The translations under genes and the position numbers were made by a program. Shown in pieces: positions 130 through 4,120 of a DNA stretch of 20,029 nucleotides. The notes beneath the pieces are model-generated. The model was not told where the DNA came from and searched no databases. It saw nothing but the letters and a program-made list of their open reading frames with translations. Positions within the stretch are counted from its first letter, which is position 1. Every line of letters begins with the position of its first letter. Source of the DNA: a virus; IMG/VR virus record IMGVR_UViG_3300021197_000118, positions 1 through 20,029 of that record. One strand, 5' to 3'.

Positions 130-158
130 TTGATATATGTTGATATCATGATTATATT
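130..158 (+). promoter_or_regulatory. Sigma70-like promoter PL with palindromic operator candidate
   Basis: A TTGATA -35 box (130-135) and a TATATT -10 box (153-158) are separated by exactly 17 bases. The spacer holds the perfect 8-base palindrome TGATATCA (141-148). Three TTGATAT copies start at 124, 130 and 140. The -10 box is followed by CTAAGGGTAAG. The same arrangement recurs at 2901-2940. The promoter faces the operon beginning at 204; transcription would start near 165. That a repressor binds the palindrome is inference. Confidence 0.72.
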
Positions 159-203
159 CTAAGGGTAAGAGGGACAAAACAGGGAAATCAGGGAGATTAC
201 CAA

Positions 204-536
204 ATGACTAAATTTACTGAAAATGAAATGAAAATCTTAAACATCCTTGCCGACAACCACGGCGCAAAATGGGATACTGAGGAAGATGACAACTCACCGC
301 ACATTGACACTTTTGAGTTGACCACTGATGGGTCTGGCCAATGCGGCACAATCTTCTCTAAAAATAATCTTGACCCGAAAGTTTATCGCGGTGTGGTTTC
401 AAGCCTTATCCAAAAGGGCGCTTTAATCACTGACGAATACGACACGATGACAGACCCACGCAAAGGCTTTTTGCCTATGATTGCCATCGCAATCAACTTC
501 GACACATTCAACGAAATTAGAAAGGCGGCGGCTTAA
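204..536 (+). CDS. Hypothetical early phage protein, 110 aa
   Basis: I do not recognise this protein. It is the first gene behind the promoter at 130-158, which suggests early expression. The ATG at 204 has a GGGAG Shine-Dalgarno sequence at 191-195, eight bases upstream. The N-terminus (KFTENEMKILNILADN, residues 3-18) and the stretch VYRGVVSSLIQKGALI (about residues 61-76) have the helix spacing of a small winged-helix fold: an opening helix, then a helix followed by a hydrophobic turn. That would fit a DNA-binding or host-takeover role, but it rests only on residue pattern. No membrane segment, signal peptide or catalytic motif is visible. Confidence 0.8.
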   Translation: MTKFTENEMKILNILADNHGAKWDTEEDDNSPHIDTFELTTDGSGQCGTIFSKNNLDPKVYRGVVSSLIQKGALITDEYDTMTDPRKGFLPMIAIAINFDTFNEIRKAAA

Positions 537-562
537 CAGCCCCGCCCCGAAAGGGATTTGAT

Positions 563-769
563 ATGGCTAACTGGCAATACACTGGTGAATGTATCGAATG
601 GGCTGATGGTTCTTTCGATGCGGTCTACAGCAATGATGCTGGTGATGTTGAGTGGAAGCCAGCAACACCAGCCCAGATTGCTGCATACAAGCGTCACAAG
701 GAATGGATGGCACAAGGCTGTCCAGACATTGTCATCAGAATGAGTGATTTATTCACAGGGAGAGCATAA
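563..769 (+). CDS. Hypothetical protein, 68 aa
   Basis: This small acidic, soluble protein is not recognised. It starts MANWQYTGECIEWADGSF and contains PATPAQIAAYKRHKEWM, a probable amphipathic helix. The ATG at 563 follows an AAGGGA ribosome binding site at about 551-556. A rival ATG at 558 in another frame lies too close to that site and gives a less phage-like product. It sits 26 bases after the previous gene and ends one base before the next start, so it is part of the same operon. No function can be assigned. Confidence 0.75.
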   Translation: MANWQYTGECIEWADGSFDAVYSNDAGDVEWKPATPAQIAAYKRHKEWMAQGCPDIVIRMSDLFTGRA

Positions 770-770
770 A

Positions 771-1061
771 ATGGAAAACATTTATAAAATACCTAAAGTC
801 TATTACCGCGATCACGTCGAGTGTGATTGTGAGGCACCTGAGATTATCAGGGAAACCAAAGCCCATTATTACATCAGTGCCGAAGATACACCTGAGTTGG
901 CTGAGTTAAGAAGCCGTGCAACATTTTATGCCGATGACATTGGCGGCGATTATTGGGAAAACTGTCGAGGCATTGTTATCTCAGCGAGAGCTACGCTTAA
1001 AGTGATTGGCATTGACGAAGCCCAGAGCAAAGCCGCTTGGGCAAGGTTTAACAGGGGGTAA
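771..1061 (+). CDS. Hypothetical protein, 96 aa
   Basis: The product is not recognised. I chose the ATG at 771 over the in-frame GTG at 744 because AGGGAGAG (757-764) sits at the right distance before 771 and because the GTG lies inside the previous gene. The protein starts MENIYKIPKVYYRDHVECDC, has a Cys-Asp-Cys motif at residues 18-20, and ends with a basic helix (SKAAWARFNRG). The C-terminal half (RGIVISARATLKVIGI) looks beta-rich. It is the third gene of the left operon. Confidence 0.75.
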   Translation: MENIYKIPKVYYRDHVECDCEAPEIIRETKAHYYISAEDTPELAELRSRATFYADDIGGDYWENCRGIVISARATLKVIGIDEAQSKAAWARFNRG

Positions 1062-1063
1062 AC

Positions 1064-1354
1064 ATGAAACAGATTAGAGTAGACCGCGTCAAACTCTGGT
1101 ATGTCGTGAGCAATCCGTTCACGCGTCCAGTTGTAACTGGTCCAATTTTCGACAGGTACGACGCAATCGCGTTGGCTTGCAAGCGCACCGACAACAAGAG
1201 CCTCATCACGCACATATCGCGTGGTGAGAGTTGGGTTGGCGGTGAGATCGTGTGTAGCGCGTACCGGCTACACGTCAACGGATGGACGGCGTTAGCACCA
1301 AAGACGCCCGACGCACGTCTTAACAAACCATCAAAATATGGGAGGGTGACATGA
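1064..1354 (+). CDS. Hypothetical basic protein, 96 aa
   Basis: The protein is not recognised. It is basic and rich in beta-prone stretches (DRVKLWYVVSNPF, residues 7-19). The ATG at 1064 follows a GGGGG ribosome binding site at 1054-1058 and lies three bases after the previous stop. Its stop overlaps the next start in an ATGA junction, which indicates coupled translation. The gene looks more GC-rich than its neighbours and carries several ACGC, GCGC and ACGT steps, so it may have been acquired separately. That is an impression from reading, not a computed skew. Confidence 0.72.
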   Translation: MKQIRVDRVKLWYVVSNPFTRPVVTGPIFDRYDAIALACKRTDNKSLITHISRGESWVGGEIVCSAYRLHVNGWTALAPKTPDARLNKPSKYGRVT

Positions 1355-1557
1355 AAGTAACACGTTTAAAAAAGGGCTATCGGATCAATCTGTCTGACAT
1401 AGAGTTTCAGTTATATGTGCGTCTAATTGATGCTGGAATGGCAGATATGCACGAACCAAATTTAAATGATCCGGTTGAAAGGCTTTTTGACCGGATCAAC
1501 GGCACACAGAAAATTAGTGATTGGTTTGAAATCGCTGACGATAGGAGATCGACATGA
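1351..1557 (+). CDS. Hypothetical protein, 68 aa
   Basis: This small mixed-charge protein is not recognised. It begins MKVTRLKKGYRINLSDIEFQ and has an amphipathic middle (YVRLIDAGMADM). The ATG at 1351 is preceded by GGGAGGG (1340-1346), a strong ribosome binding site. It overlaps both neighbours by four bases (ATGA at 1351-1354 and at 1554-1557), so its translation is probably coupled to both. The basic N-terminus and acidic C-terminus (DWFEIADDRRST) give no specific functional clue. Confidence 0.75.
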   Translation: MKVTRLKKGYRINLSDIEFQLYVRLIDAGMADMHEPNLNDPVERLFDRINGTQKISDWFEIADDRRST

Positions 1558-1682
1558 TTAAAGACACAATTGGCATGCTGTTGCTAATGGCATTTGGCTT
1601 GGCTTTTTTCACAAACGCGGTGACCACTGAATATAACGTGTGGGCGCTGATGGCAAAATCATCACAATTTTTTGGAGGATAA
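1554..1682 (+). CDS. Single-span membrane microprotein, 42 aa
   Basis: This very short gene starts in the ATGA overlap at 1554-1557 and ends at the TAA 1680-1682, one base before the exonuclease ATG. The product starts MIKDTIGMLLLMAFGLAFFT, giving one hydrophobic segment at about residues 6-23. A short polar linker and an amphipathic end (VWALMAKSSQFFGG) follow. Its last codons carry the GGAGG ribosome binding site of the next gene, so ribosomes on it may control exonuclease translation. It could be an inner-membrane protein that alters the host, or a leader peptide. The overlap spacing supports a real gene; the role is unknown. Confidence 0.6.
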   Translation: MIKDTIGMLLLMAFGLAFFTNAVTTEYNVWALMAKSSQFFGG

Positions 1683-1683
1683 A

Positions 1684-2646
1684 ATGGTAGGAAAGAAAAC
1701 CCCTGACGACATCACCACGGCATCAGTATTGCCGGTAATTATGAATATGTCGCCGCACAAAACCCCAAACGATCAGCTTGCCAAGGCGCTGGCCGCAATC
1801 GAAGGCAAGCCTGATCCCGACCCATTCAACGGCAACGAAGCCTGTGATTGGGGTGACGCCTTAGAGGGCGTCATCCTCACTACCGCCGCTGAACGACTAA
1901 ACCTGACTGACCTCAAACTGGAACACGACGCCGTCTTTCACGACACGCTACCATTTGCCGTGTCGCTTGACGGCACCGCTGACGGCGGGCTGGGGCATGA
2001 AGTCACCACCGATCCGTCGAAGGGCATCTACTGCGTTGACGGCGCTGTCTGGGTTGACGGCGTGGGCGTATTGGAGAGCAAACTTACCAGCGCCAAGCCA
2101 GAAGACCGGCCAGCGCCTCACAGGGGGCCGCTGCAACTCCAAGGGCAATTGATGGCCACCAAACTAACTTGGGGCGCTGTGTGCGTCTTATACGGCGGTG
2201 TGGAGTTACGCATCTTCTTGTACCAAGCCAACGCTGCCACACAGTCGCGCATCACGGATGAAATCGAGGAGTTTGAGCGTCGCAAGTTTGACGTTGACTG
2301 GTATCCGATTCAGTCCAGCTCTGACGGCAATACCGCCTACCCGCGTGTCGATGACGGTGCGCCGCCAATCACGTTAGAGGGCGAAGACAACGACTGGCTG
2401 GCTCAGTTGGTCAATGCCAAGGACGCCAAGCGAGCCGCTGAGGGCGACATAGACGAAGCTGAGGCTATGCTGAAAGAGCGTCTTGGCAGTCACGATGAGG
2501 CGACAGGGGTAGTCGGCAATCGCTCTTACTATGTGAAGTGGCCAATGCGTAACTTTAAGGCACAACCGGCCAAGATGACACCGGCCAAGCCCGCACGGAT
2601 TGCACGCCAAGGCACGCTGACAATTAAGGAGGCAAAAGATGATTGA
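1684..2646 (+). CDS. YqaJ-type phage exonuclease (PD-(D/E)XK recombinase nuclease)
   Basis: This is probably the 5'-3' exonuclease of a phage recombination system, which chews DNA ends for strand annealing. The family motifs are in order: WGDALEGVI with Glu61, SLDGTAD with Asp96, LESK with Glu131 and Lys133, and the helix LQLQGQLMATK with Gln151-155. Such spacing fits the YqaJ/lambda exonuclease class, and 320 residues is a normal length. The C-terminal third (LVNAKDAKRAAEGDIDEAEAML onward in part) is a helical, charged tail seen in related phage nucleases. The ATG at 1684 follows GGAGG at 1674-1678; an in-frame TTG at 1672 would place that site inside the gene. The next gene overlaps by eight bases. 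No annealing-protein gene of a familiar type is visible beside it. Confidence 0.82.
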   Translation: MVGKKTPDDITTASVLPVIMNMSPHKTPNDQLAKALAAIEGKPDPDPFNGNEACDWGDALEGVILTTAAERLNLTDLKLEHDAVFHDTLPFAVSLDGTADGGLGHEVTTDPSKGIYCVDGAVWVDGVGVLESKLTSAKPEDRPAPHRGPLQLQGQLMATKLTWGAVCVLYGGVELRIFLYQANAATQSRITDEIEEFERRKFDVDWYPIQSSSDGNTAYPRVDDGAPPITLEGEDNDWLAQLVNAKDAKRAAEGDIDEAEAMLKERLGSHDEATGVVGNRSYYVKWPMRNFKAQPAKMTPAKPARIARQGTLTIKEAKDD

Positions 2647-2851
2647 TGTGCCGCTGACGAAAAAGCAGGCGGAACTGCGGATTCTGATTGACCGCATGAC
2701 CCGCCGGTATGGCTACACGCCGACGATCAATGAGCTGTCGCAGAAGACCGGCAAGAGCTTCAGCCAAGTACACCGGCTGATGACCGGCCTAGTCGAGCGC
2801 GGCGCGGCTGAGAAGGTGGCCGGGCGAGCCAGAGCGTTTAAACTTTTATAA
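2639..2851 (+). CDS. LexA-type winged-helix DNA-binding protein without peptidase domain
   Basis: The 70-residue product follows the layout of the LexA N-terminal domain. LTKKQAELRILIDRM is the first helix, GYTPTINELSQKTGKS the wing-helix entry, FSQVHRLMTGLVERGAA the recognition helix, and a short basic wing ends the protein. Full LexA is about 200 residues and has a Ser/Lys peptidase domain, which is absent here, so RecA-driven self-cleavage is not expected. It overlaps the exonuclease by eight bases, with GGAGG upstream. It is followed directly by a terminator and then the promoter at 2901. A role as a small transcription regulator is likely; its target at the palindromes 141-148 and 2913-2920 is inference. 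Confidence 0.75.
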   Translation: MIDVPLTKKQAELRILIDRMTRRYGYTPTINELSQKTGKSFSQVHRLMTGLVERGAAEKVAGRARAFKLL

Positions 2852-2860
2852 CGAATATCG

Positions 2861-2888
2861 GCCTCGCCCTTGGGCGGGGTCTTTTTTT
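2861..2888 (+). terminator. Rho-independent terminator
   Basis: A GC-rich stem is formed by 2861-2868 and 2873-2880, with a four-base loop and two G-T pairs. It is followed at once by seven T residues (2882-2888). It lies ten bases after the winged-helix gene stop and separates the left operon from the next promoter. Confidence 0.85.
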
Positions 2889-2900
2889 GCATCAAGGGGG

Positions 2901-2929
2901 TTGATATTAAAGTGATATCATCTTATATT
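2901..2929 (+). promoter_or_regulatory. Sigma70-like promoter P2, twin of the promoter at 130
   Basis: TTGATA (2901-2906), a 17-base spacer and TATATT (2924-2929) repeat the first promoter exactly in boxes and spacing. The spacer again holds the palindrome TGATATCA (2913-2920), shifted by one base relative to the boxes. The downstream bases CATAGGGTAAC (2930-2940) also match closely. A further TTGATAT lies at 2949-2955 across the next start codon. Together these suggest common control of two operons. Confidence 0.75.
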
Positions 2930-2953
2930 CATAGGGTAACAAGGGAGATTGAT

Positions 2954-3529
2954 ATGACTTTCATTATGAACCAGACAGCTTGGGAAGCCGGACGTGAGGC
3001 AAGCATCAAGGCCAACGCGTCTATCGGGCGCAATAAGCGTTGGATTGCTGAGGATGAGACACGCAAGGAAATCGAGCGTTTTGTGTTTGGTGGCGGCAGC
3101 GATTTTATCGCCAGTATGCGCGACGCTCTGCATGAGTGGGGCAGGCTGACAGAGAACCAAGAGGCTGCTGTTCGCAAGGTTATGGCACGCGAAGAAAAGC
3201 GCGAAGCCGAGCGCACCGCTGAGTGGGAAGCCGCAGCAGATTGCCCAGAGGGCCGCGTCGAGGTGATTGGCGTTATTATCTCGACTGACATTCGCGACAC
3301 TTCTTTTGGTATGCAGTGGAAGATGCTGGTGCGTGACGATAGTGGCTTCAAGGTTTGGGGTTCTATCCCATCAAAGCTGCATGAGCCTGTTGAGGAAAAT
3401 GGTGAGTGGCTTACCGGCCAAGCTATGAAGGGCAAGCGCGTGTCGTTTGTTGCGGCTGTTGAGCCAAGCAAGGACGATCAGAAGTTTGGGTTTTTTAAGC
3501 GGCCAACCAAGGCCAAACTGGAGGGGTAA
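2954..3529 (+). CDS. Putative OB-fold single-strand DNA-binding-like protein
   Basis: The 191-residue product has two parts. Residues 48-80 (SDFIASMRDALHEWGRLT, then a charged helix) match a short motif common in phage DNA-metabolism proteins, where an L-T-x-x-Q helix follows a small helical turn. Residues 100-185 form a strand-rich region (GRVEVIGVIISTDI, MQWKMLVRDDSGFKVWGS, GKRVSFVAAVEPS, KFGFFKRPTKA) with the strand and turn rhythm of an OB fold. A nucleic-acid-binding role is therefore plausible but not proven. The ATG at 2954 follows AAGGGAGA (2941-2948). The reading frame stays open further upstream, but that extension crosses the promoter and is rejected. It is the first gene of the second operon. 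Confidence 0.72.
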   Translation: MTFIMNQTAWEAGREASIKANASIGRNKRWIAEDETRKEIERFVFGGGSDFIASMRDALHEWGRLTENQEAAVRKVMAREEKREAERTAEWEAAADCPEGRVEVIGVIISTDIRDTSFGMQWKMLVRDDSGFKVWGSIPSKLHEPVEENGEWLTGQAMKGKRVSFVAAVEPSKDDQKFGFFKRPTKAKLEG

Positions 3530-3703
3530 GTGCAAACAGAACATCTAAAACCAAACGACCTAGTCAGCGTGACTAGCCCGAAGGGCAGGACGGTCACGGC
3601 TATGGTCAGGCGGGTCGAGCGCATTGACGATGAAAGCTACAACGTAGTCTTCGAGGATATGCAGACCGCCGACAGGTTTGACTATCAATATCTTTATAAG
3701 TGA
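3530..3703 (+). CDS. Hypothetical 57-aa protein with GTG start
   Basis: The frame opens with GTG at 3530, immediately after the previous stop, with GGAGGGG at 3520-3526. The product starts MQTEHLKPNDLVSVTSPKGR and ends DRFDYQYLYK. The pattern of strands (DLVSVTSPKGRTVTAMVRRV, ESYNVVFEDM) resembles a small SH3-like beta barrel. That fits the many phage proteins of this size with short barrels, but I cannot name a family. It ends just before the convergent terminator and appears co-transcribed with the OB-fold gene. Confidence rests on the ribosome binding site, tight spacing and clean fold-like pattern. Confidence 0.65.
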   Translation: MQTEHLKPNDLVSVTSPKGRTVTAMVRRVERIDDESYNVVFEDMQTADRFDYQYLYK

Positions 3704-3707
3704 GGTG

Positions 3708-3725
3708 AGGGGGCGAAAGCCCCCT
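3708..3725 (+). terminator. GAAA-loop terminator hairpin at the convergent junction
   Basis: Stem arms 3708-3714 and 3719-3725 pair perfectly (AGGGGGC with GCCCCCT) around a GAAA tetraloop. The following rightward bases TATTTCGTT are only moderately T-rich. It lies four bases after the last rightward gene, and its right arm overlaps the first base of the holin stop codon. It may stop rightward transcripts and protect the 3' end of the leftward late message. Confidence 0.75.
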
Positions 3726-4120
3726 TATTTCGTTAGCCCCTTCATCTTCTCAAATGACCGCATGCCGCCCAACCCCAACATGCCCAGCAATACGGTCATC
3801 AGGCTGTCCATATCAAAGGCTGGCATAGGCGGTATCTCAAGCCCCATATACGCCGTGACAAAGTCAGTGGCTGGAAATAAAACGAAGTGAGCCATCAGGG
3901 CAATGCCGCAAGTCCATCCGATAAACGGACGCCACCCGGCCACAAAAATTGACCTGTGAGACGCCTCAGCTTTATTGATCTCCAGTTGCCCCTTGGCAAG
4001 CTCTTGCGCGTGCTGGTCGGCCATTGTGGCGAGTTCGTGCGCCAGTTTGTTCTTCTGGTCTTTGTCTTCGATGAACTTGTCTAGCAGGCCAGTAACCGGC
4101 CCGATCAGTGCTTGTATCAT
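3725..4120 (-). CDS. Holin, 3TM (GTA-type) family
   Basis: The 131-residue protein matches the 3TM holin family known from gene transfer agents and marine phages. It has a charged helical N-terminal half (residues 12-58), the motif WRPFIGW at 63-69, a long hydrophobic span at about 66-92, and a second at about 104-120 (DSLMTVLLGMLGLGGMRSFEK). Such proteins insert in the inner membrane and let the endolysin reach the cell wall. The N-terminal helix rich in Gln, Glu and Lys is typical of the family. It is the last gene of the leftward late operon, and its start overlaps the previous gene by four bases (ATGA). Confidence 0.8.
   Translation of the reverse strand: MIQALIGPVTGLLDKFIEDKDQKNKLAHELATMADQHAQELAKGQLEINKAEASHRSIFVAGWRPFIGWTCGIALMAHFVLFPATDFVTAYMGLEIPPMPAFDMDSLMTVLLGMLGLGGMRSFEKMKGLTK

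Follow-up and report, generated by a model that had tools for sequence, protein, structure and literature searches.

Two early promoters of an uncultured coastal phage group share a conserved spacer element, probably an operator, with a divergent Arc-like protein as candidate reader

The window, a 20,029-nucleotide stretch of viral DNA, derives from a marine podovirus-like, virulent-looking phage. Long records of its group measure 33–37 kb, and in 7 of them no tyrosine integrase was found. At the left end of the window, two promoters (P1 and P2) precede a recombination operon and a short downstream unit, with the following features.

86–91, no strand assigned: TGCTAT half-site (as TGMTAT in related phages), conserved ahead of P1 towards the divergent Arc-like gene (alignment of relatives)
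125–136, no strand assigned: two more TGATAT half-sites (125–130 and 131–136) overlapping the P1 -35, the first one unconserved (alignment of relatives)
130–158, plus strand: early promoter P1, with -35 TTGATA at 130–135, a 17-bp spacer and -10 TATATT at 153–158 (pattern search; aligned in relatives)
141–148, no strand assigned: P1 spacer copy of the putative operator core, TGATATCA here with the consensus TGATAKCA; ATAKCA at 143–148 is strictly kept (ATA-CA in 38 or more of the 39 distinct P1 regions from close relatives)
159–203, plus strand: leader of P1 (GGGTAAGAGGGACAAA... ribosome site), almost unchanged among relatives and preceding the early operon (alignment of relatives)
204–2646, plus strand: P1 operon of small genes g1–g6 (g1 at 204) and then a RecE/YqaJ-like exonuclease at 1684–2646 (phrog_434, E 8e-23)
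2639–2851, plus strand: last gene of the P1 operon, a 70-residue winged-helix protein like the LexA DNA-binding domain, without peptidase domain (PF01726, E 2e-7; TM 0.86 to LexA)
2860–2881, plus strand: intrinsic terminator closing the P1 operon and arriving with P2 and g9 (terminator prediction; relatives)
2901–2929, plus strand: P2, with -35 TTGATA at 2901–2906, a 17-bp spacer and -10 TATATT at 2924–2929 (pattern search)
2913–2920, no strand assigned: P2 spacer copy of the putative operator core, TGATATCA here and TGATAGCA in some relatives, with a second half-site TGATAT at 2902–2907, 11 bp off (relatives compared)
2954–3529, plus strand: g9, a facultative gene predicted to be driven by P2, PHROG 4265 (relatives; profile match)
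3530–3703, plus strand: g10, here predicted to be transcribed together with g9 from P2, and joining the winged-helix gene directly where the module is absent (relatives)
3708–3726, plus strand: terminator-like hairpin past g10, facing the leftward late genes (hairpin)

A preliminary description of this DNA had presented P1 and P2 as twins with the same boxes, spacing and palindrome, and the window bears this out. The pattern TTGATA-N17-TATATT occurs only at 130–158 and 2901–2929 and in none of 100 shuffles, and the palindrome TGATATCA lies exactly at 141–148 and 2913–2920 and is absent elsewhere in the window; as described, it is shifted by one base, beginning 5 bases past the -35 in P1 and 6 in P2. 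A gapped alignment of the two promoter 40-mers scores 22, the best score of either elsewhere in the window being 14, and 22 was reached by 0 of 5000 shuffled pairs. The ungapped identity of 22/40 is also reached by chance between unrelated stretches, so that what sets the pair apart is how boxes, spacing, core and GGGTAA start are arranged. The TTGATAT copies reported around both promoters are present but do not hold up as operators, as the copy at position 124 is unconserved (mostly TTGCTAT or another word in relatives) and that at about 2949 belongs to a ribosome-site and start-codon context. The winged-helix gene does precede P2; the terminator at 2860–2881, which the earlier account did not mention, sits between them.

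Relatives were gathered with the 70-residue winged-helix protein (67 useful viral contigs) and with the Arc-like protein discussed below (80 loci), many of the fetched loci being the same contigs or near-identical ones. Over ~180 fetched loci, many of them overlapping, the conserved element is ATA[G/T]CA, usually in the form TGATA[G/T]CA. Column conservation at P1 was assessed on 39 distinct close-relative regions, with the downstream leader as the sole anchor of the alignment. Columns that 38 or more of these share are TTG..A of the -35, ATA.CA, ATAT of the -10, most of the leader and a few columns of the upstream flank, while most remaining promoter columns vary. The constraint on ATAKCA is therefore as strong as that on the -35 and -10 hexamers. 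The exact palindrome was rejected as the signal, as many relatives carry TGATAGCA or AGATAGCA. Its loss from relatives with the same genes had been named beforehand as evidence against a shared regulator; in such relatives the exact palindrome is often missing, but ATAKCA is kept.

The reverse complement of this hexamer, TGMTAT, has 9 occurrences in the two promoter regions, compared with 1.44 in shuffles, and ranks first there among its 120 letter permutations. Half-sites of this form exceed the shuffle mean in all 38 distinct P1 regions, most regions of type B (see below) holding only 2, which are individually not significant. In one 35.6-kb record (G005) the two densest half-site clusters are P1 and P2, and in distant relatives, where the P1 core drifts to AATATAA or TAATATAA, half-sites are still found nearby.

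TGATAKCA persists in P2 among divergent clades and in differing gene neighbourhoods, the divergent copies keeping TTGATATT....GTGATAKCA. In L166, L167 and L169 a different promoter, TTGCGTTATGCTATCAACCTGATATAAT, follows the winged-helix gene with a 16-bp spacer and the core inverted (TGCTATCA), an orientation more readily expected of a two-fold protein site than of an element contacted by polymerase. This bears on the view that ATAKCA is a spacer element of strong host sigma-70 promoters and that the twins share only their use of polymerase. Its constant place between -35 and -10 at fixed spacing in the P1 of close relatives would suit such an element, as would a conservation matching that of the hexamers. 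The inverted copy with its different spacer length, the additional copies outside the spacer (at window position 86 and beside the -35) and the one-base shift between P1 and P2 all argue against it; we know of no such sigma-70 spacer element and regard this explanation as very unlikely.

The earlier proposal that one regulator acts on two early units through a common spacer element is supported by the many relatives that keep this element in both promoters at a constant position, and also by its inversion in one distant P2. These sequence comparisons suggest that P1 and P2 probably share one operator. Covariation of the P1 and P2 cores within a genome was not seen, the types assorting freely: P1 type B occurs with GATAGCAC in L014 and L025, type A with GATAGCAC in L028 and L031, and type C with GATATCAT in L035. 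A strict promoter-pattern scan of viral_contigs returned 31 stretches, of which 27 belong to this phage group and 4 (L084, L087, L089 and L099) are unrelated, approximately the level expected by chance. A near DNA search in cultured phages gave no match, and literature searches on the operator word and on early control of the Arc-like type yielded nothing relevant. Confinement of the element almost entirely to this group, and its rarity in phages of the same waters, argue against a host regulator as the reader of TGATAKCA, by which the phage would borrow host control for both early units. We consider this unlikely, even though the element outlasts changes in the phage proteins and the weak Arc-like assignment leaves space for a host protein.

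Among the phage's own proteins, the 70-residue LexA-like protein had been put forward as the shared regulator, and as the product of the last gene of the P1 operon it would feed back on both P1 and P2. It does have a genuine LexA-type DNA-binding fold, resembling the N-terminal winged-helix domain of LexA in both fold and sequence (PF01726, E 2e-7; TM 0.86), but it consists of this domain only and lacks the C-terminal S24 self-cleaving peptidase domain. Its gene, lying in the P1 operon and adjoining P2, is conserved in most relatives with both promoters, and delayed negative feedback would make sense. However, P2 is near-identical in L079/80/82/91 and L085/90/98, where the protein is only 38–39% identical and its recognition helix is unrelated (LSTSMVKKYQDQL or RSVTATQALINQL, compared with KSFSQVHRLMTGL in the window protein), and proteins 90–100% identical to that of the window occur mostly in relatives without P2. 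This evidence speaks against its reading the P1 and P2 sites, and we consider the assignment unlikely.

A second small protein is encoded on the other side of P1. In the relatives read, a gene for a 63-residue Arc-like protein diverges from P1, and it was present in 9 of 9 long records searched. Its start codon would lie ~37 bases past the left end of the window; because the contig ends first, we infer its presence in the window's own phage from L028 and L031, whose P1 region is 99% identical. The motif KPxLLRLR is kept in versions of 65–100% identity. Matches to Arc-like repressor PHROGs were obtained for 10 of 20 members (best E 6e-4), the match to Pfam RHH_5 has an E of 0.03 (0.028), and no PDB match was found. 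AlphaFold predicts one long helix for the monomer (pTM 0.50), a model that speaks neither for nor against a strand-helix-helix fold; ribbon-helix-helix proteins fold as intertwined dimers. No relatives of the protein were found in bacterial genomes. Arc-like alleles show a weak association with P1 types A and B (p ~0.006 at residues 5–40); association across types A, B and C was set aside as mostly linkage, with V/I at residue 4 accompanying type C.

With P1 types A and B the Arc-like gene has a long leader containing a GAAGC...GCTTC inverted repeat, ~90–170 nt upstream of P1 and partly off the left end of the window; type C is without the long leader and its start codon lies ~33 nt from P1. 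This difference suggests control of the repressor at the level of its leader. In L007, L011, L023 and L030 an ORF starting MLDLFSGIGGFSYAGEKLVGGYETVAFCE, by eye apparently a cytosine-5 DNA methyltransferase, lies upstream of the Arc-like gene; it occurs in several type-C records and was not noted in the others.

The element is present at a fixed position, conserved and linked to the divergent Arc-like gene, and on these sequence grounds the Arc-like protein is most likely a better candidate reader of P1 and P2 than the LexA-like one. Our preferred explanation, to which we give a probability of roughly 0.58, is that P1 and P2 are early promoters under one operator (core TGATAKCA, half-site TGMTAT/ATAKCA) that would be read by the divergent Arc-like repressor. 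Upon infection, host sigma-70 RNA polymerase would start both units, P1 driving the recombination operon and P2 the facultative add-on module. The 63-residue, putative ribbon-helix-helix protein would then accumulate from the divergent gene and bind the half-sites in the spacer and beside the -35, excluding RNA polymerase and thereby shutting off P1, P2 and probably the Arc-like gene's own promoter.

Arc/Mnt-type ribbon-helix-helix repressors are known from phages such as P22. The likeness, beyond the PHROG matches, lies in a small repressor gene beside the promoter that it (here putatively) controls, and in short palindromic half-sites that lie beside the -35 and -10 or between them. The sequence relation is weak, however, and here the protein would act on an early recombination operon of a phage showing no integrase, together with a facultative module. 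Small repressors that control early genes through shared operators are already known, as are facultative promoter-gene modules. If the preferred explanation holds, an uncultured, widespread coastal phage group gains a concrete circuit of early control, made up of promoters, an operator, a candidate repressor and the facultative module, with the Arc-like protein taking the place of the LexA-like one as candidate regulator.

Terminator, P2 and g9 form a unit (2860–3529) that is missing from most relatives and, where present, stands on one or the other side of g10. In counts that include near-identical contigs, 24 of 67 loci have P2 placed between the winged-helix gene and g10, and the winged-helix gene abuts g10 without terminator, P2 and g9 in 42 of 67. 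The unit follows g10 instead in L079/80/82/91, and g9 is wholly absent from G001–G004, G006 and G012. P2 always has the terminator just upstream, and g9 downstream wherever the contig is long enough. The conserved C-terminal domain of g9 (RxEVxGxIxS...GFKVWGSIP...KGKRVSF...KFGFxKRPTKA) has matches in 464 phage records, most of them from Microbacterium and Klebsiella phages.

Morons are accessory genes of phages that bring a promoter and a terminator of their own. The unit resembles them in combining a terminator, a promoter and a gene that are present or absent among relatives, between genes that otherwise abut. It differs in that its terminator precedes the gene, g9 reading on into g10, and in that its promoter bears the phage's own early operator and is hence probably phage-controlled. 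The early operator in P2 suggests that the module is not expressed independently of the phage programme; carrying a copy of the operator, P2 would place g9 under the same control and timing wherever the module inserts. A facultative gene module would thus enter the circuit by bringing the operator along.

The P1 regions of aligned relatives combine near-invariant flanks with many promoter alleles. Type A, that of the window, is TTGATATATGTTGATATCATGATTATATT, type B is TTGTCATATGTAGATAGCATCCCTATATA, type C is TTGACATATATTGATAGCAAGTCCATATT, with a different and shorter upstream flank, and type D is TTGTCAAACCCTGATAGCATCATTATATA; distant relatives have further types with cores such as TAATATAA. 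Between L131 (type A) and L112 (type B), 160 upstream bases are identical and then 16 of 46 promoter bases differ. L067 and L149 appear to be A/B mosaics. Comparison of window 130–170 with L112, L131 and others reveals at least 10 allelic sequences of the P1 core, several of them between near-identical flanks.

What is unusual at this locus is the presence of many exchangeable promoter-core alleles that keep only the polymerase contacts and ATAKCA between unchanged flanks. The alleles may have arisen by drift, by exchange with other phages or by competition between co-infecting relatives. A more specific idea, which we hold only tentatively and as unlikely, is that the core of the early promoter forms a cassette of 40–46 bp that diversifies and can be exchanged, keeps only TTG, ATAKCA and ATAT, and could reflect operator-level competition among virulent phages. 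If so, selection would alter how strongly the repressor of a co-infecting relative silences an incoming genome. A promoter core with many alleles between flanks that do not change offers a testable sign of diversifying pressure on early-promoter control in phages showing no integrase.

The MEP301-type OM43 phages (MW452941) have rightward recombination genes with a YqaJ exonuclease and leftward late genes (PMC8024684). Their genome size (34.8 kb) and layout, with a rightward early RecE/YqaJ operon and leftward late genes, are like those of the window's group. They differ in that the exonucleases are 34% identical and that no core-bearing promoter was found there. C72C1 was rejected as a comparable system; its terminase is 75% identical, but the regulator diverging there is a different one, by eye helix-turn-helix, and no such promoter pair is present. 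Within the group, the early operon of G005 holds an extra ORF (L073:1479–2516), by eye an apparent GIY-YIG-type endonuclease (MIVYLATNTVNGMQYVGLT...) and probably a homing endonuclease.
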